NCBI GenBank assembly: GCA_001899285.1
Contig: MKWA01000021.1
Span: forward strand, 11,101-46,306
Origin: Rhizobiales bacterium 64-17
GTDB taxonomy: Bacteria > Pseudomonadota > Alphaproteobacteria > Rhizobiales > Xanthobacteraceae
Reading direction: 5' to 3'
Length of the DNA: 35,206 nt
Within the stretch, counting starts at the first letter, position 1; every line of letters starts with the position of its first letter. The translations under genes were made by a program, and so were the position numbers. A model generated the notes under the pieces. The model had not been told where the DNA came from and made no database searches. It was given only the letters and a program-made list of their open reading frames with translations. Below are positions 6,953 through 31,219 of this stretch, piece by piece.

Positions 6953-7027
6953 GCTCCCTTCGTCTAGCGGTTAGGACGCGGCCCTCTCAAGGCTGAAACA
7001 GGGGTTCGATTCCCCTAGGGAGCGCCA
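6953..7027 (+). tRNA. tRNA-Glu (anticodon CTC)
   Basis: A full cloverleaf can be folded by eye. The acceptor stem is GCTCCCT/AGGGAGC and the D arm is GTCT-AGCGGTTA-GGAC. The anticodon stem CGGCC/GGCTG holds loop CTCTCAA, with anticodon CTC at positions 34-36. The T arm is AGGGG-TTCGATT-CCCCT and a CCA end is encoded. CTC reads the GAG codon. The gene marks the boundary between core genes on the left and accessory genes on the right. Confidence 0.96.
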
Positions 7028-7754: not shown

Positions 7755-8708
7755 ATGGCCAAGACCAACAAGCCGGCCGCCGCCCAGGCGGCGGCCCCGA
7801 AGGGCAAGGTTGCTGCCAAGGCGGCAGCGGAAACGCCTGCGGCGCCGGCGAAGCGCGAGAAGCGCACCATCACGGAAATCCGCGAGTCGAAGCAGACCGG
7901 CGAGAAGATGTGCTACATGTCGGTGCCGGACTATACCTCCGCGCAATGGGCGGAGATGGCCGGGGTCGATGTCGCCGTGCTCGGCGACAGCCTGGCGATG
8001 ATCGCCCACGGCCACCGCAATACCGTCCCCGCCACCATGGATATGATGGTGATGCACGGCCAGGCGGTGCGGCGCGGCGCGCCCAATACCTTCGTGCTCG
8101 GTTGCATGCCGTATCAGAGCTACAACACGGTCGATCGCGCGCTGGTGAACGCGACGCGCTTCATGCAGGAATCGCTGTGCGATGCGGTGAAGCCGCAGGG
8201 CGGCAAATCGCAGGCGCATATCCTCAAGGCGCTGGTCGATTCCGGTATTCCGACCGCATCGCATATCGGCCTCACCCCGCACACCATCGCCATGTTCGGC
8301 GGCTTCAAGATTCAGGGTAGGACCGCCGACGCAGCCATGAAGATTCTCGAGGATGCCCTCGCGATCGAGGATGCCGGCTGTTTCATGCTGGAATTCGAGG
8401 CGGTGCCGGCCAAGATCGCCAAGCTCATTTCCGAGCAGTTGACCATCCCCACCATCGGCATCGGCGCCGGCGCGGGCACGGACGGGCAGATCCTGCTCTG
8501 CTACGACTTGCTCGGCGTGTTCACCGATTTCAAGCCGAAATTCACCAAGCGGTTCGCCAAGCTCACCGAGGTCGCGGTCGACGGCATCAAGCAGTACGTC
8601 AGGGAAGTGAAGGAGGGGGTTTTCCCCGACGACGATCATTCCTATGGCGTCAATGAAGCCGAATATGAGAAATTTGAAGCCATGGTACGCAAACGCAGGC
8701 AGATCTGA
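7755..8708 (+). CDS. Divergent PanB-like (ketopantoate hydroxymethyltransferase family) protein
   Basis: True PanB transfers a methylene-THF-derived hydroxymethyl group onto alpha-ketoisovalerate in pantothenate synthesis. This 317-residue protein has a Lys/Ala-rich extension of about 40 residues and then the PanB fold. Landmarks are LGDSLAM (Asp78 equals metal-binding Asp45 of the E. coli enzyme), SHIGLTPHTI, FGGFKIQGRT, a Glu215 equal to catalytic Glu181, and IGIGAGAGTDGQIL. Two of the three usual metal ligands are changed: E. coli Asp84 (ADLPF) is Cys117 (GCMPY), and Glu114 (VKIEGG) is Gln148 (VKPQGG). The following GntR gene starts one base after the stop codon. The altered site and the regulator link suggest a paralogue with another substrate, not the housekeeping PanB. 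Fold assignment secure; activity unknown. Confidence 0.85.
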   Translation: MAKTNKPAAAQAAAPKGKVAAKAAAETPAAPAKREKRTITEIRESKQTGEKMCYMSVPDYTSAQWAEMAGVDVAVLGDSLAMIAHGHRNTVPATMDMMVMHGQAVRRGAPNTFVLGCMPYQSYNTVDRALVNATRFMQESLCDAVKPQGGKSQAHILKALVDSGIPTASHIGLTPHTIAMFGGFKIQGRTADAAMKILEDALAIEDAGCFMLEFEAVPAKIAKLISEQLTIPTIGIGAGAGTDGQILLCYDLLGVFTDFKPKFTKRFAKLTEVAVDGIKQYVREVKEGVFPDDDHSYGVNEAEYEKFEAMVRKRRQI

Positions 8709-20190: not shown

Positions 20191-20389
20191 CGTTTTCTCC
20201 CATGCCGTTTCTGCGTTTTGCGGCAGTAAAGATCGAACATCTGCTACCAGTCAACAAAATTTATAACATTTATGATTCTGGGGACTATAATGCGATATCC
20301 GGAGGAAGGGGTTGCGAACCGCCGACCGATGGGATTCTGAGAGCCACGCGGCACCAAGAGCGCCAAACGACAGCAGCGGTCAGACAGCC
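20191..20389. promoter_or_regulatory. Divergent promoter region between deacetylase and GntR genes
   Basis: This 199-base gap contains a distinct AT-rich island (about 20251-20292) with TTATAACATTTATGATT and ACTATAATGCGATATCC. It is the natural place for both divergent promoters and for the GntR operator. The start codons of both genes face away from it. I cannot assign exact boxes. Confidence 0.5.
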
Positions 20390-21064
20390 ATGACGGGAAA
20401 CGTGACCATCGCCAGTGCCGCCTATCAGCAGGTGCGGGCCGACATCATCGCCGGGCGGCTGACGCCGGGAGCCAAGCTGCGCATTCGCGATGTGTGTCAG
20501 CGCTACGAGGTCAGCATCACGCCGATGCGCGAAGCGCTGAACCGGCTCGCGTCCGAGCAACTGGTGGTGCTGAATGACCAGCGCGGATTTGCGGTGAGTG
20601 GCATCAGCCGTGCGCAACTCGAGGAACTGACTCATACCCGCGTCTGGCTCAACGATGTGGCGCTGCGTCGTTCAATCGAATTCGGCGATCTCGCCTGGGA
20701 AGAGCATGTGCTGTTGAGCTATCACCGGCTGGCCCGCGTTCCACGCTACGCCGGCGCCGATGACAGCGAACTCAATCCGGACTGGGATCCGCCGCACCGC
20801 GCGTTTCACAGCGCGCTCAATGCGGCATGCCCGTCGCGCTGGATCTGCGGCTATTGCGATCAACTGTTCGATCAGTCGTCACGCTATCGCAATCTTTCGC
20901 GCGCCATCGTCATGAAAGAGCGCGGCGATCTCGATGAGCACCGGCCGATCATGGACGCGGTCATCGCGCGTGATGCCGACAGCGCCGTGGCGTTGATGAC
21001 GCGGCACGTGACCGAGACCACGAAAATCTTGCTGGATCGCTGGAGCGATATCGCCGGCGCCTAG
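20390..21064 (+). CDS. GntR-family transcriptional regulator, FCD type
   Basis: The 224-residue protein has a winged helix with RLTPGAKLRIRDVCQRYEVSITPMREAL (about residues 22-49). MREAL replaces the more usual IREAL. The FCD domain follows, with HRAFHSAL, DEHRPIMDAVIARD and MTRHV ligand-site segments. The ATG at 20390 is used; the frame extends to 20312, but that would put more of the AT-rich promoter island into the gene. It is divergent from the deacetylase/FAH/Bug genes, which it probably regulates. A decayed cupin gene lies directly downstream. Confidence 0.88.
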   Translation: MTGNVTIASAAYQQVRADIIAGRLTPGAKLRIRDVCQRYEVSITPMREALNRLASEQLVVLNDQRGFAVSGISRAQLEELTHTRVWLNDVALRRSIEFGDLAWEEHVLLSYHRLARVPRYAGADDSELNPDWDPPHRAFHSALNAACPSRWICGYCDQLFDQSSRYRNLSRAIVMKERGDLDEHRPIMDAVIARDADSAVALMTRHVTETTKILLDRWSDIAGA

Positions 21065-21255: not shown

Positions 21256-21456
21256 CGGCATGGCATTGCTCTTATCGCGAGATCAATGCTGACTATCACC
21301 AGTCGGATCGAGGTGCGTGTGTCGGGGCAATTTCGGCTACGATGTTCGTCGCGCACCGTATAACGGGCAGACGTCCTGACATGTGCAGTCGCCTTCATAT
21401 TACGATCCACGTAAGTCGTTGATATGAATGCTTCCAGCGATATGCAGGAGGCATCC
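21256..21456. promoter_or_regulatory. Upstream region of the formate dehydrogenase operon
   Basis: No credible gene is seen in this roughly 200-base gap. It must carry the promoter of the operon that begins at 21457. A strong Shine-Dalgarno AGGAGG at 21446-21451 fixes the start of the first gene five bases later. CATATTACGATCCACGTAAG near 21397-21416 is AT-rich relative to its surroundings, but I cannot name promoter boxes. Confidence 0.45.
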
Positions 21457-23439
21457 ATGGGTAGACAAGGGAAGCAGAATTACACCCGGCTGACCGAGCC
21501 GCTCGTGCGCGACAACGGCATATTGCGGCCGGCCTCATGGGATGAGGCGCTCGATCGCGCCGCCGAGGGCTTCCGTCGCAATCGCGACCTTCACGGTCCC
21601 GATGCGTTCGGCATGTTCTCGTGCTCGCGCGCGACCAACGAGATGAACTTCATCGCCCAGAAGTTCGCCCGTGTGGTGATCGGCACCAACAACATCGATT
21701 CCTGTAATAGGACCTGACACGCTCCCAGTGTCGCCGGTCTGGTGCACGTATTTGGAGCTGGTGGTGGTACGTCTTCCTATCGTGAGGCGGAAGATGCGGA
21801 TCTGCTCGTCTTCTGGGGCTCAAACGCCCGCGAAGCGCATCCGATTTTCTTTCATCACGCGCTGAAGGCCATTCACAAAGGGGCCAAGGTCTACGCGGTT
21901 GATCCGCGCCGGGCCAAGACCGCCGAATGGGCCGACGCCTGGCTCGGTCTGGACGTCGGTACCGACGTCGCGTTGGCGTATGGCATCGGTCGCGAGATCA
22001 TTCACGCCGGGTTGGTCAACGAGGCGTTCGTTGCGAATGCTACCACCGGGTTCGAAGAATATATCGCGGCCTGCGAACCGTGGACCTTGGAGGTCACCTC
22101 CCGTGAGACGGGCGTGCCCGCGGACCTGATCCGTCAGCTTGCGCACGACTATGCCAAGGCGGAGCGCGCGCAGATCTGCTGGACGCTCGGCATCACGGAG
22201 CATCACAATGGCACCGACAATGTGCGGTCGCTTTGCAACCTCGCGCTGCTCACGGGCCATGTCGGTCGCTGGGGCTCGGGTCTCGTTCCGTTGCGCGGTC
22301 AGAACAATGTCCAGGGCGGCGGCGACATGGGGGCGATCCCCAAGAACCTGCCGGGATTCCAGGACGTCGGTAATGCCGACCATCGCGCGAAGTTCGAGCG
22401 TCTGTGGAACGTCACGATGCCGCCGAAGTACGGCATGACGCTTTCGGAAATGATGCACGCGATGGACGAGGGGCATCTCACCAACCTTTACATCATCGGT
22501 GAGAACCCGGTGCAGTCCGACGCCGACTCCAACGCGGTGGGCAAGCGTCTGGAAAACCTGGATCACGTGGTCGTGCAGGACATCTTCCTGACCAAGACCG
22601 CGTCGTACGCCGACGTGGTGCTTCCTTCCACGGCGGCGTGGTGCGAAAGCGAAGGAACCTTCACCAACAGCGAACGGCGGGTTCAACTCGTGCGCAAGGC
22701 GCTGGAGCCGCCAGGAAGCGCGAAGGACGACATCGAGATCATGCGTTTGATCGCGGAGCGTCTTGGGCGAGGTTGGCCAGAGCAAACTGCCGAGCAGATC
22801 TGGGACGAGTTGCGCGCGGTGTCGCCGCGGCATCACGGAATGTCCTATCGGCTGCTCGCGGAGCGGGGCGGGTTGCAATGGCCGTTCCCCGACGAGAACG
22901 GGCCCGAGTCGCCATTCCTGCACGGCCGGCTCTGGGAGAAGGATCCCGAGAAACGCGGACAACTGGCACCGTTCGGCACGCCGAAACACAGCTTGCCGGT
23001 GGACAAGCTCGACGACGAATTCCCGCTGCGTCTGACGACAGGGCGGCGGCTGACCGACTACAACACCGGCGTGCAATCCGGCGGCTTCAATTCGCCGATC
23101 CGATTTGGCGCCTGCGTCGATCTCTCGCCGGAGGACATGGCCCGACTTGATGTCAACGAGGGCGAGTGGGTGCGGATCAGTTCGCGCCGCGGCTCCGTGC
23201 TGGCGCCTGTGCGCCGGGAGCCGGGGCTGCGTCCCGGATTGCTCTTCATGGCCTGCAACTTCCCCGACGAGGTGGATGTCAACGCGCTCACCATCGAGGC
23301 GAACGACCCGATCTCCGGAACGGCGGAGTTCAAGGCGACGGCGGTCAAGGTGGAGAAGACCAACGAAGTCCCGACGTGGGAGAGAAATGTCTTCACCAAG
23401 CTTGGTCGCGAGAAACAAGAGCTGGCGCCTGCGGAATAA
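21457..23439 (+). CDS. fdhA: Formate dehydrogenase alpha subunit, catalytic part (selenocysteine-containing)
   Basis: This is the Mo/W-bis-pyranopterin catalytic part of an NAD-linked formate dehydrogenase, oxidising formate to CO2. It has 660 residues if the TGA at 21715-21717 is read as selenocysteine (residue 87). The frame is open on both sides, and the flanks NNIDSCNRT and HAPSVAG match the family exactly where the active-site Cys/Sec lies. A SECIS hairpin follows. Later landmarks are VFGAGGGTSSYREAEDADLL, FWGSNAREAHPIFFHH, VYAVDPRRAKTAEWAD, RGQNNVQGGGDMGAIP, IIGENPVQSD and the C-terminal MopB domain (LTTGRRLTDYNTG). The N-terminal iron-sulfur domains of FdsA are absent and are encoded separately at 25302. 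The start at 21457 follows AGGAGG. Function requires SelABCD, not in this window. Confidence 0.93.
21715..21747 (+). promoter_or_regulatory. Selenocysteine UGA codon and bacterial SECIS hairpin
   Basis: The TGA is at 21715-21717. The hairpin spans 21728-21747: arm GTG-T-CGCC (21728-21735), loop GGTCT (21736-21740), arm GGTGCAC (21741-21747). Seven pairs form, one of them G-T, with T21731 bulged. The GGTCT loop starts 19 bases after the TGA, the same distance as in E. coli fdhF. The bulged U and GGUCU loop are the features contacted by elongation factor SelB. Confidence 0.9.
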
Positions 23440-25305: not shown

Positions 25306-26246
25306 ACGCGCCTTACCCGGTGACGCCGGTCCAGCAGGTCACGATCAAAATCGACGGCGAGGATGTGAGCGTCCCGGAGGGAAGCACGATCCTGACCGCC
25401 TGCAACGCGGCGGGGAAGGACACGCCGACGCTCTGCTACGGAGACACCCTGACGCCCAAGAATGCCTGCCGGGTCTGCATGGTCGAGCTGAAAGGCTCGC
25501 GCGTCCTCGTACCGTCCTGCTCCCGCAAGGTCTCGCCTGGCATGGAGGTGATGACCGACACCGAGCGCGTGCGCCACAGCCGCCGCCTTGTGCTGGAATT
25601 GCTCGGTTCTTCGGTCGATCTGTCCACCACGCCGCGAATCCCCGAGTGGATGCAGCGCTACGACGCCGACCCGGATCGTTACGGCGAAAGGTCCGGCGAG
25701 AGCCTCACGCGCGATATCCACGAGCCGGGCGAACACCATGCCGGGAACGGCTACGTCGCGGCGACGATGAGCCAGCCGGACAAGATCGACAACGATCTCT
25801 ATGTCCGCGACTACAGCAAGTGCATCCTCTGCTACAAGTGCGTGGATGCCTGCGGAACCCAGTGGCAGAACAGCTTCGCGATTCAGATCGCGGGGCGCGG
25901 GTTCGACTCCCAGATCTCGACCGAGTACGCCGCAGAACTGCCGGACTCCGCTTGCGTCTTCTGCGGCAATTGCGTGGAGGTTTGCCCGACCGGGGCGCTG
26001 TCGTTCAAGTCCGAATACGACATGCGCGCCGCAGGCACTTGGGATGAATCGCAGCAGACCGAGACCACCACGGTCTGCACGTATTGCGGTGTCGGCTGCA
26101 ATCTGAACCTGCACGTCCAGGACAACAAGATCGTCAAGGTGACTTCGCCTCATGATCACTCGATCGGCCACGGTAACCTCTGCATCAAGGGCAGGTTCGG
26201 TTTCGTGCACGTCCATAGCCGCTCAAAAGAGGGCAGCGACTCATGA
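25302..26246 (+). CDS. Formate dehydrogenase alpha subunit, N-terminal iron-sulfur part
   Basis: This 314-residue protein corresponds to the first third of FdsA-type alpha subunits. It has a [2Fe-2S] ferredoxin-like domain (C45, C56, C59, C73), two [4Fe-4S] clusters (C174, C177, C180, C184 and C218, C221, C224, C228), and the start of the molybdopterin domain. The last carries the proximal [4Fe-4S] ligands C259, C262, C266 (CTYCGVGC) and C294 (LCIKGRFGF). It stops at HSRSKEGSDS, just where the catalytic part at 21457 would continue (GRQGKQNYTRLTEPLVRDNG). It would pass electrons between the Sec/Mo site and the NuoEF-like subunit, but only by assembling with the separate catalytic polypeptide. 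Coupled to fdhB by ATGA overlap. Confidence 0.92.
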   Translation: MNAPYPVTPVQQVTIKIDGEDVSVPEGSTILTACNAAGKDTPTLCYGDTLTPKNACRVCMVELKGSRVLVPSCSRKVSPGMEVMTDTERVRHSRRLVLELLGSSVDLSTTPRIPEWMQRYDADPDRYGERSGESLTRDIHEPGEHHAGNGYVAATMSQPDKIDNDLYVRDYSKCILCYKCVDACGTQWQNSFAIQIAGRGFDSQISTEYAAELPDSACVFCGNCVEVCPTGALSFKSEYDMRAAGTWDESQQTETTTVCTYCGVGCNLNLHVQDNKIVKVTSPHDHSIGHGNLCIKGRFGFVHVHSRSKEGSDS

Positions 26247-26326: not shown

Positions 26327-27154
26327 TTGGTGTTCGATCCGGTTCGTCGTGTCGAGCGCAAAGCCTGGCGGGCCGAGGGGCTCGCTGGTGGCGAACGCAC
26401 GATTCCGGAAGAGGTCGCTATTGCTTTCACTTATAACGGCTCATCTTACGCCGTGATGATGGCGACGCCGCAGGATTTTGAAGATTTCGCTTACGGTTTC
26501 AGCCTGAGCGAGGGGATTATCAAATCCCCAACCGAAATCGAGCAGCTTGAAATCATTGAGCAGGATGTCGGCGTTGAGTTGCAGATGCGGCTCGCCGAGC
26601 CGCATGGTACCGCGTTCCGTGATCGCCGTCGCTATCTTGCCGGCCCGACCGGCTGTGGTCTTTGTGGCATCGAGTCGCTCACCGAGGCGATGCGCACGCC
26701 ATCCACCGTGAGTGATGAGGTCACCTTTGCGCCGAAAGACATTATGACGGCGCTCGATGCGCTCAACGTCAAGCAGACGATCAATCACTCGACGCGCGCG
26801 GTTCATGCCGCGGCGTTTTTTCGCCCCGGTGAAGGTCTGGTCGCGTTGCGTGAAGACGTCGGCCGTCATAACGCGCTTGACAAGCTCGCCGGCGCGCTCG
26901 CCCGCGCTGGCGAAAAATCCAATGATGGCTTCTGTATTGTCAGCAGCCGGTTGTCCATCGAGATGGTGCAGAAGGCTGCGGCGATGCGCGTTCCTGTCAT
27001 CGTAGCTATTTCGGCGCCAACCGCGTTAGCGGTACGCGTTGCCGAAAGCGCCGGCCTGACCTTGATCGCTGTTGCTCGCAGCGATGGTTTTGAGATTTTC
27101 ACCCACCCCCAACGTATCGAGCAGGACCGCGGTTTCCATATCGCCGCTGGCTAA
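26327..27154 (+). CDS. fdhD: Formate dehydrogenase accessory sulfurtransferase
   Basis: FdhD takes sulfur from a cysteine desulfurase and delivers it to the Mo/W cofactor of formate dehydrogenase, which is inactive without it. The 275-residue protein has AFTYNGSSYAVMMATPQDFEDFAYGFSLSEGII near the start. The CxxC sulfur-transfer motif is GCGLCG (C110, C113), and GRHNALDKLAGAL is a late landmark. Its start must be the TTG at 26327 or the GTG at 26330, because an in-frame TAG lies at 26324-26326. It lies 80 bases after the iron-sulfur part of the enzyme and is probably in the same operon. A 27-codon frame precedes it (see findings). Confidence 0.93.
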   Translation: MVFDPVRRVERKAWRAEGLAGGERTIPEEVAIAFTYNGSSYAVMMATPQDFEDFAYGFSLSEGIIKSPTEIEQLEIIEQDVGVELQMRLAEPHGTAFRDRRRYLAGPTGCGLCGIESLTEAMRTPSTVSDEVTFAPKDIMTALDALNVKQTINHSTRAVHAAAFFRPGEGLVALREDVGRHNALDKLAGALARAGEKSNDGFCIVSSRLSIEMVQKAAAMRVPVIVAISAPTALAVRVAESAGLTLIAVARSDGFEIFTHPQRIEQDRGFHIAAG

Positions 27155-27537: not shown

Positions 27538-28413
27538 ATGAAGCCTGCGCCGTTCGACTATCTGCGTGTTCATTCGATCGATGAAGCGATTGCCGCGCTT
27601 GCTGAGCATGACGATGCGGTGATTTTGGCGGGCGGACAAAGTCTCGTACCGATGCTCAATTTCCGGCTGGCATCGCCCGGTTTGCTGATCGACATCAACC
27701 GCATATCGGACCTCGCGCGCATCGGCGTGACGCCGGATGGGCTGACGCTCGGCGCTCTGGTGCGCTGGCATGAGTTGGAAAGCAGCACGGTCGTAGCGCG
27801 CCACAATCCGCTGCTACAATATGCGGTGCGCCATATCGCGCACTATCAGATCCGTAATCGCGGCACCGTCGGCGGTAGCAGCGCGCATGCTGATCCGGCG
27901 GCGGAGTTTCCCGCCGTGGCGCTCGCCTGCGATGCGATCTTCTCGCTGCGCAGCGCGCGCGGCACGCGAACAGTCACGGCGGCGGACTTTTTCCGCGGTG
28001 CACTGGAGACGGCACTCGAACCGGGAGAAATGCTGGTCGCCATCCAGTTTCCGGCCTGGCCGGTGCGGCGTGGCTGGGGCTTCGAGGAGTTTGCCCGCCG
28101 CGCCGGCGACTTCGCGCTGGCGGGCGCGATTGTCCTGCTCGACTACGATGCCGATGGCGTCTGCGCGGATGCGTCGCTGGTGTCGTTCGGTGCCGGCGAT
28201 CGCGCGCTTCGTCTGACGCGAGCCGAGGAATGCCTGCGCGGCATCAGGCTCACGGTCGGCGCGCTGACAGAGGCCGCGCGGATCGCGGCCGAGGACTGTG
28301 AGCCGAAGTCGGACATGCACGCGCCGGCCGAATACCGCAGCGCCTTGCTCGAAACATTGATGCTGCGCGCCTTGAACGCCGCTGCCGCACCTGATCGCAG
28401 GACGGTAGCCTGA
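27538..28413 (+). CDS. Molybdenum hydroxylase FAD-binding subunit (CoxM-like)
   Basis: This medium subunit of a xanthine dehydrogenase/CO dehydrogenase-family enzyme carries FAD and passes electrons on from the iron-sulfur subunit. The 291-residue protein has the FAD signatures AGGQSLVPMLNFRLA (about residues 32-46) and RNRGTVGGSSAHADPAAE (about 107-124). The C-terminal half has the expected CO-dehydrogenase flavoprotein domain. Its stop codon overlaps the next start by one base (TGATG). First gene of the operon; gene order M-S-L is the common one for CODH-like hydroxylases. Confidence 0.93.
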   Translation: MKPAPFDYLRVHSIDEAIAALAEHDDAVILAGGQSLVPMLNFRLASPGLLIDINRISDLARIGVTPDGLTLGALVRWHELESSTVVARHNPLLQYAVRHIAHYQIRNRGTVGGSSAHADPAAEFPAVALACDAIFSLRSARGTRTVTAADFFRGALETALEPGEMLVAIQFPAWPVRRGWGFEEFARRAGDFALAGAIVLLDYDADGVCADASLVSFGAGDRALRLTRAEECLRGIRLTVGALTEAARIAAEDCEPKSDMHAPAEYRSALLETLMLRALNAAAAPDRRTVA

Positions 28414-28886
28414 TGACGAGCATCACCGTACAGGTGAACGGCCGCGCGGAGAGCCACGACGTCGAGCCCCGGCTGACATTCGCTGATTTTCTGCGGCACA
28501 CGTTACGCCTCACCGGCACGCATGTGGGGTGCGAGCATGGCGTCTGCGGTGCGTGCACCGTGCTGGTCGACGGCAAGGCAGTGCGGAGTTGCCTGATGTT
28601 CGCGGTGCAGGCGGACGGCTGCGAGGTCGTCACTGTCGAAGGGCTTGCGCCGGATGGCGAGTTGTCGCCGCTGCAGCAGGCGTTCCGCAGACACCATGCC
28701 CTGCAATGCGGGTTCTGTACGCCGGGCATGCTGATCACGGCGCAGGCGCTCATCGACAGTGAACCCGATCTGACCGAGGAGCGGGTGCGCGACGTGCTCT
28801 CGGGCAACATCTGCCGCTGCACCGGCTATGTGCCGATCGTCGCGGCCGTGCTCGATGCGGCCGCAAGCGGGGATCGCAAACGATGA
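28413..28886 (+). CDS. Molybdenum hydroxylase [2Fe-2S] subunit (CoxS-like)
   Basis: This 157-residue small subunit holds two [2Fe-2S] clusters. The plant-ferredoxin-type cluster is in GCEHGVCGACTVLVDG plus the Cys in VRSCL. The second cluster is in QCGFCTPGM and ICRCTGY. Length is typical. It overlaps both neighbours (TGATG at the start, ATGA at the end), so the three subunits are tightly coupled in translation. Confidence 0.95.
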   Translation: MTSITVQVNGRAESHDVEPRLTFADFLRHTLRLTGTHVGCEHGVCGACTVLVDGKAVRSCLMFAVQADGCEVVTVEGLAPDGELSPLQQAFRRHHALQCGFCTPGMLITAQALIDSEPDLTEERVRDVLSGNICRCTGYVPIVAAVLDAAASGDRKR

Positions 28887-31219
28887 GGCTGTCCGCTCAA
28901 ACCCGTGCGGCTGCGATCGGCCTCGCCCGCGAGCGGGTGGAAGATCTGCGTTTTCTCAAGGGGCGTGGCCATTACATCGACGATGTAATCCTGGACGGAA
29001 TGCTGCACGGTGTTGTGCTGCGGAGTCCCGTGGCGCATGCGCGGATCAAGAGCATCGATACCTCCGCCGTGCTGGCGATGCCGGGTGTCAAAGCGGTGTT
29101 CACGGCGCGCGATCTCGGCGAGACGGTACTGATCCCGCTGCGCGCGGCGTCGCTGCCGGGTTATGAGCGGTCGTTCCTGCAGCCGCCGTTTGCGGTCGAT
29201 AAAGTGCGCTATGTCGGCGAGCCGGTTGCATTTGTGGTCGCGGATACGCCTTACCGGGCCGAGGATGCGCTCGAACGGATCGAGGTGGATTACGAGCCGC
29301 TGCCGGCTGTGACCGATTGGGCATCTGCCAACCGCGACAGCGTTCTGCATGACCATGCCGGCACCAATGTCGCGTCGTCCTATCGGGTGACGCGTGGCGA
29401 TCCGTCTGTGGTTGCGGGCGCGGATTACGTCCGGTCGGAACGGTTGCGCTGCCATCGGCACAGCGGTGTTCCGCTGGAAACACGCGGCCTCGTCGCGCAA
29501 TGGGATGCTGCGCAGCAGCGGCTGCGCGTCTGGGGTGCGGCGAAGGTCGCATTCGCCAATCGCCGCATCCTCGCCGGAATGATCGGTCTTCCCGAAACGG
29601 CGATCGATCTCATCGAGGTCGATATCGGCGGTGGCTTCGGCGTGCGCGGCGAGTTTTATCCGGAAGACTTCATCGTCCCGTTCGCCGCGCGCGCGCTCGA
29701 ACGTCCGGTGAAATGGATCGAGGATCGGCGCGAGCATCTGATGGCAACCAATCACGCGCGCGAGGTGGACTGCGAACTGCAGATCGCTTGCCGCGCGGAT
29801 GGCACAATCCTTGCTCTATCCGGCAGTATCTTTGTCGATCTCGGGGCTTATGTGCGCACGAACGGCAGCATGGCGCCGTCGAACACCGCGGCATTTCTGC
29901 CGGGGCCTTACCGGATTCCGCATTTTGCCTGCGACGTGAATGTCTTCACCAGCAACAAAACGCCGATCGGCAGTTTTCGCGGGCCGGGACGCTTCGAGGC
30001 CAATTTCTTTCGCGAGCGCATGATCGACATCGCTGCGCGCGATCTCGGCATCGATCCGGTCGAGATGCGCCGGCGCAATCTGCTGACCGCGCAGGAGATG
30101 CCTTACGATCCCGGCGCGCTGATCCCGAACAGTGCGACATCGCCCTACGACAGCGGCGACTATGCGCTGGCCTTGAGTGGTGTGATCGCAGCGAGTGAGT
30201 GGGATCGGCTGCACGCGCTGTCCGGTCGCATCGTCGATGGGTGGCATCATGGCGTCGGTGTCGCGTGCTTCGTCGAGAGCGGGGGCGCGGGGCCGCGCGA
30301 ATGCACGAGGCTGCGTCTCGCCGACGACGGGACGATTGATCTCTACACGGGTTGCTCGACGCTCGGTCAGGGTCACGAAACATCCTTTGCGCAAATCTGC
30401 GCCGATGCGCTCGGCATCGCTCCCGAAGCGGTCCGGGTATTTCACGGCTCGACCACCGATCTTGCCGAAGGGTTCGGCACCTATGGCGGCCGCGCGGCGG
30501 TGATGGGCGGCAGTGCCATCCTCGATGCGGCGCGCGCTTTCATCGAACAGGCCCGCCCGCTGGCTGTCGGCCTGTTCGGAAGCCCGAACGAAGAACTCGT
30601 GTGGCGAGACGGTGCGTTCTTTTCAGCCGATGGAATGCGGCAGACGAACCTTGCAGAGCTTGCGGGCGCAGCGAGGATGAATGGGCGCGTGCTCGATGTG
30701 GAAGGCGCCTTCAACAACACCAAACTGACCTACAGCTATGGCGCTAATGTCGCGCATGTCGCGGTGGACATCAAAACCGGACGCGTGAAGGTTCTCGGCT
30801 ACTGGGCTGTGGAGGATGTCGGGCGTATGATCAACCCGCTCATTGTCCACGGACAGATGATCGGTGGTATCGTGCAGGGCCTCGGCGGCACCTTCTTCGA
30901 TGAATTCATTTATGACGAAGACGGTCAGCTTCTTAACGCGTCGCTCGCCGACTATCTGCTGCCCACGGCCAGCGATTTTCCTAGCATCAACTGCATCTCG
31001 CTCGAACATGCGCGCTCGACCACCAATCCGCTCGGCGTCAAGGCCGCCGGCGAGGGGGGTATCGTCGCCGTGGCGGCAACGGTCGCCAATGCCGTCTCCG
31101 CCGCGCTCGCGCCGCTCGGAGTCGGGATCAACACGCTGCCGATCACGCCGGTGCGGATTTGGCGCGCCGCGCAAGAGAGTATGACGACGACTGCGACTTC
31201 CGGAAGCCAAGGAAACTGA
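28883..31219 (+). CDS. Molybdenum hydroxylase catalytic subunit (xanthine dehydrogenase/CoxL family, not Form I CODH)
   Basis: This 778-residue catalytic subunit binds molybdopterin cytosine dinucleotide. Landmarks are the cofactor loop GGGFGVRGEFYPED (near residue 250), GSFRGPGRFEANFFRERMID (near 360), GQGHETSFAQI, GIVQGLGGTFFDEF (near 665) and KAAGEGGIVA (near 720) with the conserved active-site Glu. The Form I CO dehydrogenase signature AYxCSFR is absent; the corresponding loop reads PIGSFRGPG. The enzyme is therefore more likely a hydroxylase of an aromatic, N-heterocyclic or aldehyde substrate, or a Form II-like protein of unknown activity. A solute-binding protein gene follows at 18 bases and may supply the substrate. 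Confidence 0.93.
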   Translation: MRLSAQTRAAAIGLARERVEDLRFLKGRGHYIDDVILDGMLHGVVLRSPVAHARIKSIDTSAVLAMPGVKAVFTARDLGETVLIPLRAASLPGYERSFLQPPFAVDKVRYVGEPVAFVVADTPYRAEDALERIEVDYEPLPAVTDWASANRDSVLHDHAGTNVASSYRVTRGDPSVVAGADYVRSERLRCHRHSGVPLETRGLVAQWDAAQQRLRVWGAAKVAFANRRILAGMIGLPETAIDLIEVDIGGGFGVRGEFYPEDFIVPFAARALERPVKWIEDRREHLMATNHAREVDCELQIACRADGTILALSGSIFVDLGAYVRTNGSMAPSNTAAFLPGPYRIPHFACDVNVFTSNKTPIGSFRGPGRFEANFFRERMIDIAARDLGIDPVEMRRRNLLTAQEMPYDPGALIPNSATSPYDSGDYALALSGVIAASEWDRLHALSGRIVDGWHHGVGVACFVESGGAGPRECTRLRLADDGTIDLYTGCSTLGQGHETSFAQICADALGIAPEAVRVFHGSTTDLAEGFGTYGGRAAVMGGSAILDAARAFIEQARPLAVGLFGSPNEELVWRDGAFFSADGMRQTNLAELAGAARMNGRVLDVEGAFNNTKLTYSYGANVAHVAVDIKTGRVKVLGYWAVEDVGRMINPLIVHGQMIGGIVQGLGGTFFDEFIYDEDGQLLNASLADYLLPTASDFPSINCISLEHARSTTNPLGVKAAGEGGIVAVAATVANAVSAALAPLGVGINTLPITPVRIWRAAQESMTTTATSGSQGN

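Follow-up and report, generated by a model that had tools for sequence, protein, structure and literature searches.

The question raised by this locus is whether an apparently interrupted gene is a single gene with a recoded codon and, if so, which enzyme it would encode and how the codon would be read. The locus lies in a stretch of 35,206 nucleotides from Rhizobiales bacterium 64-17 (contig MKWA01000021.1), called the window below, in which the frame running from the ATG at 21457 to the stop codon ending at 23439 contains an in-frame TGA at 21715-21717. This TGA is very probably read as selenocysteine (Sec), judging from the frame, its relatives and the hairpin that follows it, and the gene would very likely belong to a cytoplasmic, selenium- and molybdenum- (or tungsten-) dependent, NAD-linked formate dehydrogenase (FDH) of three subunits with a split alpha chain. 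Sec recoding is ordinary in itself, and a Sec FDH of the same three-gene shape, FDH3, has already been published; among bacterial selenoproteins, the family of FDH alpha subunits is the most widespread (PMC13188914, PMC5029168). An annotation without Sec recoding would divide the catalytic gene into two.

The UGA codon and the hairpin behind it

A sequence-only reading of the window had described the two frames separated by the TGA as being in phase, which is borne out by translation across 21715-21717, and its active-site context (CNRT-x-HAPS) and residue number hold as well: the read-through product carries CNRT-U-HAPS with Sec as residue 87, counted from ATG 21457. The UGA stands in frame at the metal-ligand Cys/Sec position, as in bacterial Sec-decoded FDHs. 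An alternative longer frame opens at ATG 21424, and homology to most proteobacterial Sec relatives runs from about MGRQGKQNYTRL onward.

Relatives of the catalytic gene were sought in genome contigs, and 80 of 355 were kept (loci, genomes and contigs carry L, G and C numbers below). The codon at the site is TGA in 13 of them, 11 from Alphaproteobacteria or unplaced Pseudomonadota and two from Comamonas, and TGC or TGT in the other 67, which are by record actinobacterial in every case. A second sample, 297 genomes from the family to which Kutzneria (G014) belongs, gave matches in 73 genomes; the 50 loci read there divide into 22 with TGA and 28 with Cys at the site, 20 of the 22 having been chosen for fetching because the listing showed a TGA. 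Four rows with a listed TGA (L144, L162, L163 and L167) have Cys at the site and the TGA elsewhere. Throughout the 130 loci of both sets, which share some genomes, the codon aligned with residue 87 is TGA, TGC or TGT, as expected of the Cys/Sec position proposed in the sequence-only reading. The nearest relative, L031, is 96% identical and has the same TGA. Among 398 sampled genomes of the phylum, identity in the next-best rows does not exceed 43%, and those of them listed have open frames of at least 711 amino acids. A sample of the order yielded a match at E 1e-150 in one of 297 genomes, the source genome itself; among close relatives 8 of 298 genomes, the source included, matched at 1e-200, and a plasmid collection had no match at E 1e-150.

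The hairpin was compared over 103 genes, namely the 67 Cys genes of the first set and 36 Sec genes (13, 22 and that of the window). A signature of U17, GU at 23-24 and a 4-bp upper stem, numbered from the U of UGA, is present in all 36 TGA genes and in none of the 67 Cys genes; in the window G23 and U24 correspond to 21737 and 21738, in the register of a post-UGA hairpin of bacterial Sec-decoded FDHs. The 48 bases from the TGA align without gaps in the 36 Sec genes, where U17, the loop G22-U26 and the pairs 18-30 and 21-27 are invariant, and the pairs 7-44, 8-43, 10-41 and 11-40 of an outer stem are present and unchanged in every case. Of 28 distinct rows, 15 have UA and 13 have CG as pair 20-28; pair 19-29 is GC or GU. 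A covariation score was matched by none of 500 column shuffles, which left kinship in place, and drops when the partner is slid by one to three columns. Two of five covariation measures show no excess over shuffles; two pairs have changed on both sides, a number that 297 of 500 shuffles reach, and there are six further pair types, which 455 of 500 reach.

A descriptor of the hairpin, composed after the hairpin had been seen, matches, with both strands counted, one of 978 TGA triplets in the window, that at 21715, as well as 15 of 30,087 TGA triplets in other loci and 11 of the 13 TGA sites of the proteobacterial relatives. The window hairpin is more than chance, because the descriptor picks out a single TGA among 978 and the signature separates TGA from Cys genes completely. 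It had been likened to that of E. coli fdhF: the GGTCT loop and the bulged T at 21731 both appear in the minimum-energy fold, but the bulge is predicted in only two of the 36 Sec genes.

The coding sequence is constrained in the same place. The codons GTC GCC GGT CTG GTG are invariant in all 14 proteobacterial Sec genes. Val at +5, Gly at +7 and Leu at +8 are the same in 103 of 103 genes and are written with one codon each in the Sec genes, while the Cys genes use two, four and three codons, respectively. When codon entropy is ranked over windows, the 12 codons after the TGA come 14th of 526 in the 14 Sec genes, and the same 12 codons come 281st of 317 in 14 of the 67 Cys genes, a result that is supportive, not extreme.

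The machinery for Sec insertion had been predicted to lie elsewhere in the lineage, and we find all four components in the source genome (4.63 Mb, 26 contigs, listed completeness 100%). SelA (591.8 bits), SelB (423.7), tRNA-Sec (80.0) and SelD (430.3) each score above the family cut-off, and selA, selB, selC and selD are grouped within 8 kb on contig C13 (27.7-35.6 kb). Only one SelB lies above the cut-off. The tRNA-Sec has 96 nt and the anticodon UCA (ARAGORN); it is nested (7873-7968) in the 3' end of the selB frame (L022:5905-8004, 699 aa; G000:C13), and the selB stop codon overlaps the start of the next gene. Upstream of the sel genes, on the same contig, lies a Sec fdoG with one TGA. The statement of the sequence-only reading that selenoproteins are uncommon in this group needs correction, as this group is already known to contain Sec formate dehydrogenases together with selABCD (PMC8124441). 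The source genome resembles the fdoGHI-selABC cluster described in that work for Rhizobiales, with selC nested in selB, in having a Sec fdoG, selA, selB with a nested tRNA-Sec and the stop/start overlap; it differs in that fdoG is the Sec target in the part of the description at hand, while the split FDH is a second target here (PMC8124441). Among relatives, selA was found in all 13 proteobacterial genomes with TGA and in five of nine sampled Cys genomes. The source genome also contains a full-length FDH alpha gene of the Cys kind (G000:C9:244178-246229, L023; 952-aa frame, TGC at the site), so Sec and Cys formate dehydrogenases coexist in it.

Architecture of the enzyme and rival explanations

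The catalytic subunit had been called complete, which it is not. Read through, it aligns with the Fdh-alpha model TIGR01591 at positions 51-672 only, lacking the first 50 positions that form the [4Fe-4S] domain, and Pfam finds on it molybdopterin and dinucleotide-binding domains alone. The missing part is encoded at the 3' end of the third gene, whose product matches TIGR01591 positions 1-51 and, at residues 254-305, PF04879 (Molybdop_Fe4S4, E 1.3e-18), and from this division of the model it follows that the alpha chain is split over two genes. R. capsulatus FdsA (6tg9_A) shows the same seam: its residues 25-303 match gene 3 and residues 306-945 match gene 1. By comparison of sequences, the operon (Table 1) very probably encodes a three-subunit, NAD-linked FDH with a split alpha chain. 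The gene order (catalytic, NuoEF, iron-sulfur (Fe-S) with Fe4S4) recurs in 73 of the 80 loci, the other seven being cut by a contig end, and in 19 of 20 further Sec loci, one being cut likewise; in 28 of the 30 short loci L141-L170 NuoEF directly follows the catalytic gene. In L187 the matches to NuoEF and gamma are broken into several pieces, which may reflect frameshifts or sequencing errors.

The gamma subunit was aligned for the window and for 91 of 100 loci, those with a frame of at least 270 aa. In all 92 sequences 16 cysteines between residues 45 and 294 are invariant, among them the ligands Cys259, 262, 266 and 294 of the Fe4S4 domain, and so is Lys296. This lysine aligns with that of the C-x-K-G-R-F motif of FdsA and, by motif only, reads as the counterpart of Lys44 of E. 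coli FDH-H. In the catalytic chain the residues of DSCNRT-x-HAPSV-GL, the Sec/Cys-His pair and the block RGQNNVQG are invariant, and a model of the chain (mean predicted local distance difference test, pLDDT, 74.7) is predicted to adopt the FDH-H fold, with TMq 0.85 to E. coli FDH-H (1fdi). We infer that the resident SelB and tRNA-Sec would decode UGA 21715 by means of the hairpin directly 3' of it, and that the catalytic chain would then hold the metal cofactor and Sec without any Fe-S domain of its own. Electrons would pass from the metal to the [4Fe-4S] domain on the C-terminus of gamma, on to the ferredoxin clusters of gamma, and through the NuoE/F diaphorase to NAD.

Compared with FdsABGD of R. 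capsulatus (6tg9), the window has a homologous molybdenum domain, Fe-S string and NuoE/NuoF-like diaphorase, but FdsA is a single chain with a Cys ligand (PMC13397495), whereas here two genes take the place of one alpha chain carrying both Fe-S extension and molybdenum domains. The operon of the window also begins with the catalytic gene, carries NuoE and NuoF as a fusion and has Sec as the ligand. The full-length Cys gene on C9 of the source genome is of the FdsA kind. With respect to the FdhF proteins of E. coli and of the hydrogen-dependent CO2 reductase (HDCR), 1fdi is the best fold match and 7qv7 the best sequence match in the PDB. E. coli FDH-H holds its own [4Fe-4S] cluster, with Lys44 between the cluster and the molybdenum cofactor; among the Lys44 exchanges tested only Arg retained activity, 7.1% (PMC12176258). 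In the window, the cluster ligands and the lysine of the same motif sit on another subunit. The catalytic chain of DorA likewise is without an N-terminal [4Fe-4S] domain (PMC10100899); in DorA-like enzymes, as far as that source describes them, the cluster is absent, while that of the window is supplied by a neighbouring gene. We found no description of a detached Fe4S4 domain in the open-access literature searched, which is not proof of its absence from print. A Pelobacter passage with the words "split into two" (PMC3543383) concerns geopilins and is unrelated. The detached relay domain represents a natural test of this domain's role and a starting point for research on CO2/formate enzymes.

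FDH3 was described in the actinobacterium Actinomycetospora chiangmaiensis DSM 45062, whose enzyme (FdhA3, FdhB3 and FdhC3 of 640, 614 and 316 aa) is described as cytoplasmic and NAD-dependent with a Sec alpha subunit and was detected in proteomes (PMC7176365). The window, in another phylum, has the same three-gene shape, a Sec catalytic gene followed by genes of about 615 and 315 aa (660/617/314 aa in all), and the consulted part of the FDH3 description does not remark on a split of Fe4S4 (PMC7176365). A number of observations weigh against the enzyme proposed here. The likeness to the published FDH3 is one of lengths and names, not of sequence. A. chiangmaiensis accumulates formate unless selenite is supplied, an effect attributed by the authors to FDH1 and FDH3 (PMC7176365), and this selenium dependence is one of the strain's formate removal, in which both enzymes are considered likely to act, rather than of FDH3 by itself. 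A SECIS (selenocysteine insertion sequence) prediction at the TGA, advised in the sequence-only reading, gave a match to Rfam SECIS_3 (RF01989) across the whole model (21712-21773, E 0.0012), but its 25.5 bits fall below the gathering score of 63; at the gathering threshold Rfam finds no SECIS in the window or in six relatives (four with TGA), in which it reports one tRNA-Sec only. The fold energy of the 46-nt hairpin region lies within the shuffled range (z -1.12, 24 of 200 shuffles as low). With 625.5 bits, the catalytic chain stays below the TIGR01591 equivalog cut-off of 666.25, its N-terminal Fe4S4 part being missing. The model of gamma is of low quality (mean pLDDT 54.6) and was set aside, and docking of the Fe4S4 domain in trans is thus unsupported by it. 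Finally, L145 and L149 (G711 and G745) are lone Sec catalytic genes, for which 17.5 and 19.2 kb of surrounding sequence contain neither a beta nor a gamma homologue (L263:9458-11362 and L264:9477-11381, between genes of the major facilitator superfamily and ArsP-like permease genes); either the three-subunit unit is not universal, or the partners of these two are located elsewhere in their genomes.

The substrate is where an alternative has most room. Formate is suggested by family and motif, and an NAD-linked molybdo- or tungsto-oxidoreductase acting on something else would fit with the operon's neighbours, which are unrelated catabolic genes and a xanthine-dehydrogenase-like operon, and with the two relatives that have no partner genes nearby. 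Such an enzyme is nevertheless improbable in our estimation: Fdh-alpha is the best-matching family, formate dehydrogenases make up most of the nearest solved structures, neither the Sec/Cys-His pair nor the RGQNNVQG block varies, and FdhD is adjacent. Very improbable is that the UGA ends a short peptide and that a second functional protein starts at GTG 21742. An open reading frame with this start is listed (21742-23439), but its product would leave the active-site residue and the surrounding invariant DSCNRT-x-HAPSV-GL outside, and the Cys homologues are one continuous chain. We give least credence of all, and hardly any, to a nonsense mutation that truncated a former Cys gene in a decaying operon. 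The sequence-only reading had held that close homologues carrying a different sense codon and lacking a hairpin would point that way, and such genes do exist in Actinobacteria (TGC or TGT in 67 of the 80 loci, none with the hairpin signature); they are accompanied, however, by 35 other genes with both TGA and hairpin, which indicates exchange between Sec and Cys and not a nonsense mutation. The frame downstream of the TGA is moreover intact, the 96%-identical nearest relative shares the TGA, the hairpin is kept in 36 TGA genes across two phyla, and the genome has complete sel machinery.

As for the direction of this exchange, a quickly built tree (79 catalytic chains: 36 with Sec, 29 of the outgroup and 14 from the 67 Cys genes; with long-branch warnings) places the 50 family chains in one clade (SH-aLRT 100), within which two Sec/Cys changes occur and Cys is restricted to Actinobacteria. 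Since Cys is seen there only, Sec may be the older state in the family. One actinobacterial genome (G924) has two Sec split formate dehydrogenases, L175 and L176.

Hairpin types and a second SelB in relatives

According to a review, U17 of bacterial SECIS elements has to be bulged, and U17 and G23 bind SelB (PMC8659212). When the probability that U17 is unpaired is computed over bases 13-35 of the predicted fold, it reaches at least 0.98 in 8 of 8 proteobacterial fdoG genes (only three distinct sequences) and at most 0.01 in 10 of 10 actinobacterial fdoG genes; the 22 actinobacterial genes of the split family have a mean of 0.01. A bulged U17 was rejected as the family-wide structure (63.3% of cells paired, versus 92.3% for a continuous helix). 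The window and L031 stand out with 0.97 each. Between the window and L032 the hairpin differs in a silent change of a Ser codon (AGC to AGT) and a change of Thr ACG to His CAC, and the predicted bulge needs both: CAC with AGT gives it, CAC with AGC does not. At the second of these codons the Cys genes have Ala, Arg, Lys, Gln or His and the Sec genes Thr or Ala, His occurring among Sec genes in the window and L031 alone. Given the variety of residues, the protein constraint there looks weak.

The decoding factor also comes in two kinds. Behind gene 3 and convergent with it, 10 of the 13 proteobacterial TGA relatives (L032-L034, L036, L037 and L039-L043) encode a second SelB, SelB2 (260.7-292.9 bits against the SelB family), next to which lies a tRNA-Sec in six (L032, L033, L034, L040, L042 and L043). 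In L032 and L033 selA and selD flank SelB2 as well, forming a self-contained Sec island. A resident SelB1 (403.3-450 bits) is also present in 8 of the 10 SelB2 genomes, among them that of Comamonas badia DSM 17552 (L042); G002 and G003, very probably the same as G1112 and G1090 (600-nt cores identical, both 99% complete), have SelB2 only and no fdoG match. At E 1e-60 fdoG was not found in G002, G003, G005, G010 and G011, and in G001 as a fragment only. A tree of SelB, from which two of eight actinobacterial loci (L209 and L210) were dropped for want of a reading frame matching the query, separates SelB1 and E. coli SelB from SelB2 and actinobacterial SelB (branch 100/100). Over the C-terminal region that holds the SECIS-binding domain (E. 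coli position 376 onward), SelB2 is 38.6% identical to actinobacterial SelB and 21.0% to SelB1. No SelB2 is detectable in the window genome or that of L031, nor in the 3 kb behind the L031 operon; the L031 genome is very probably G969 (83% complete, 6% contamination). No paper on more than one SelB per genome was found in the open-access literature searched, which is not proof of absence.

It is conceivable, with the balance somewhat on the negative side, that two SelB-SECIS dialects can coexist in bacteria and that a SECIS can switch from one to the other. The proteobacterial split FDH would travel with an actinobacterial-type SelB2, often with its own selC; factors of the SelB2 type would, in the simplest view, read a hairpin with paired U17, and SelB1 of the E. 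coli type the bulged hairpins of fdoG. The lineage of the window would have lost SelB2, and two codon changes would have shifted the register of the stem, bulging U17 and re-tuning the signal to SelB1. In agreement with this, U17 of the split FDH is unpaired with a probability of about 0 in 10 of 10 SelB2 genomes, and in the six with both SelBs and a readable fdoG (G004, G006, G007, G009, G012 and G013) fdoG is bulged in every case and the split FDH is not. If true, distinct ready-made Sec decoding systems would work side by side in one cell, and the gene in the window would show a signal that passed from one decoding factor to the other, a switch recorded in two codons.

Several points speak against such dialects. 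Among genomes with SelB1 only, the window and L031 have the bulge, but L035 and L038 both have 0: L038 (G008; very probably G1095, 99% complete) has SelB1 and fdoG and no SelB2 at E 1e-45, yet its U17 is paired, as is that of L035, where no SelB2 was seen and genome completeness is not given. Being sisters, the window and L031 make the bulged form a single event. A true U17 bulge results from 45 of 366 codon pairs at Ser and +10, and the register shift is therefore not rare enough to prove selection. Over bases 4-48 the proteobacterial fdoG values fall from 0.98-1.00 to 0.69-0.97. The branch dividing the SelB tree is long (2.49), with a program warning that long branches meet, and predicted folds say nothing on the bound state of the hairpin.

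Features of the locus and its surroundings

The features of the FDH locus are collected in Table 1.

Table 1. Positions of genes and sequence elements of the formate dehydrogenase locus in the window
Feature	Positions	Strand	Details
GntR-type regulator upstream of the operon	20312..21064	+	best match CsiR model, below cut-off
Probable ribosome binding site AGGAGG	21446..21451	+	5 nt ahead of ATG 21457
Catalytic (molybdopterin) subunit of the putative formate dehydrogenase, 660 aa	21457..23439	+	TIGR01591 51-672 (625.5 bits), PF00384, PF01568
TGA, very probably the Sec codon, at the metal-ligand position	21715..21717	+	frame, site codons of relatives, hairpin
Predicted SECIS with outer stem	21721..21758	+	21721-21725 pairs with 21754-21758, upper hairpin inside
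Predicted upper SECIS hairpin	21728..21747	+	3 bp, bulged U17 (21731), 4 bp, loop GGUCU (21736-21740)
Beta subunit, fused NuoE-like/NuoF-like diaphorase (FMN/NAD, Fe-S), 617 aa	23452..25305	+	
Gamma subunit, [2Fe-2S] and 4Fe-4S ferredoxin domains and C-terminal molybdopterin-enzyme Fe4S4 domain, 314 aa	25302..26246	+	
Detached [4Fe-4S] domain	26061..26216	+	gamma Cys259, 262, 266, 294, Lys296
FdhD, accessory sulfurtransferase, TTG start as listed	26327..27154	+	TIGR00129 215.7 bits (cut-off 140.9), PF02634

The GntR-type regulator may act on the operon. FdhD is 90% identical between the window and L031 (L031:7076-7897), and it lies downstream of the operon in the former and upstream in the latter, which represents a rearrangement. 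Behind the FDH cluster, at 27538-31219, the window contains a three-gene molybdoenzyme operon of the xanthine dehydrogenase/glyceraldehyde dehydrogenase/aerobic carbon monoxide dehydrogenase type. The sole tRNA found in the window is a tRNA-Glu (CTC) at 6953-7027.

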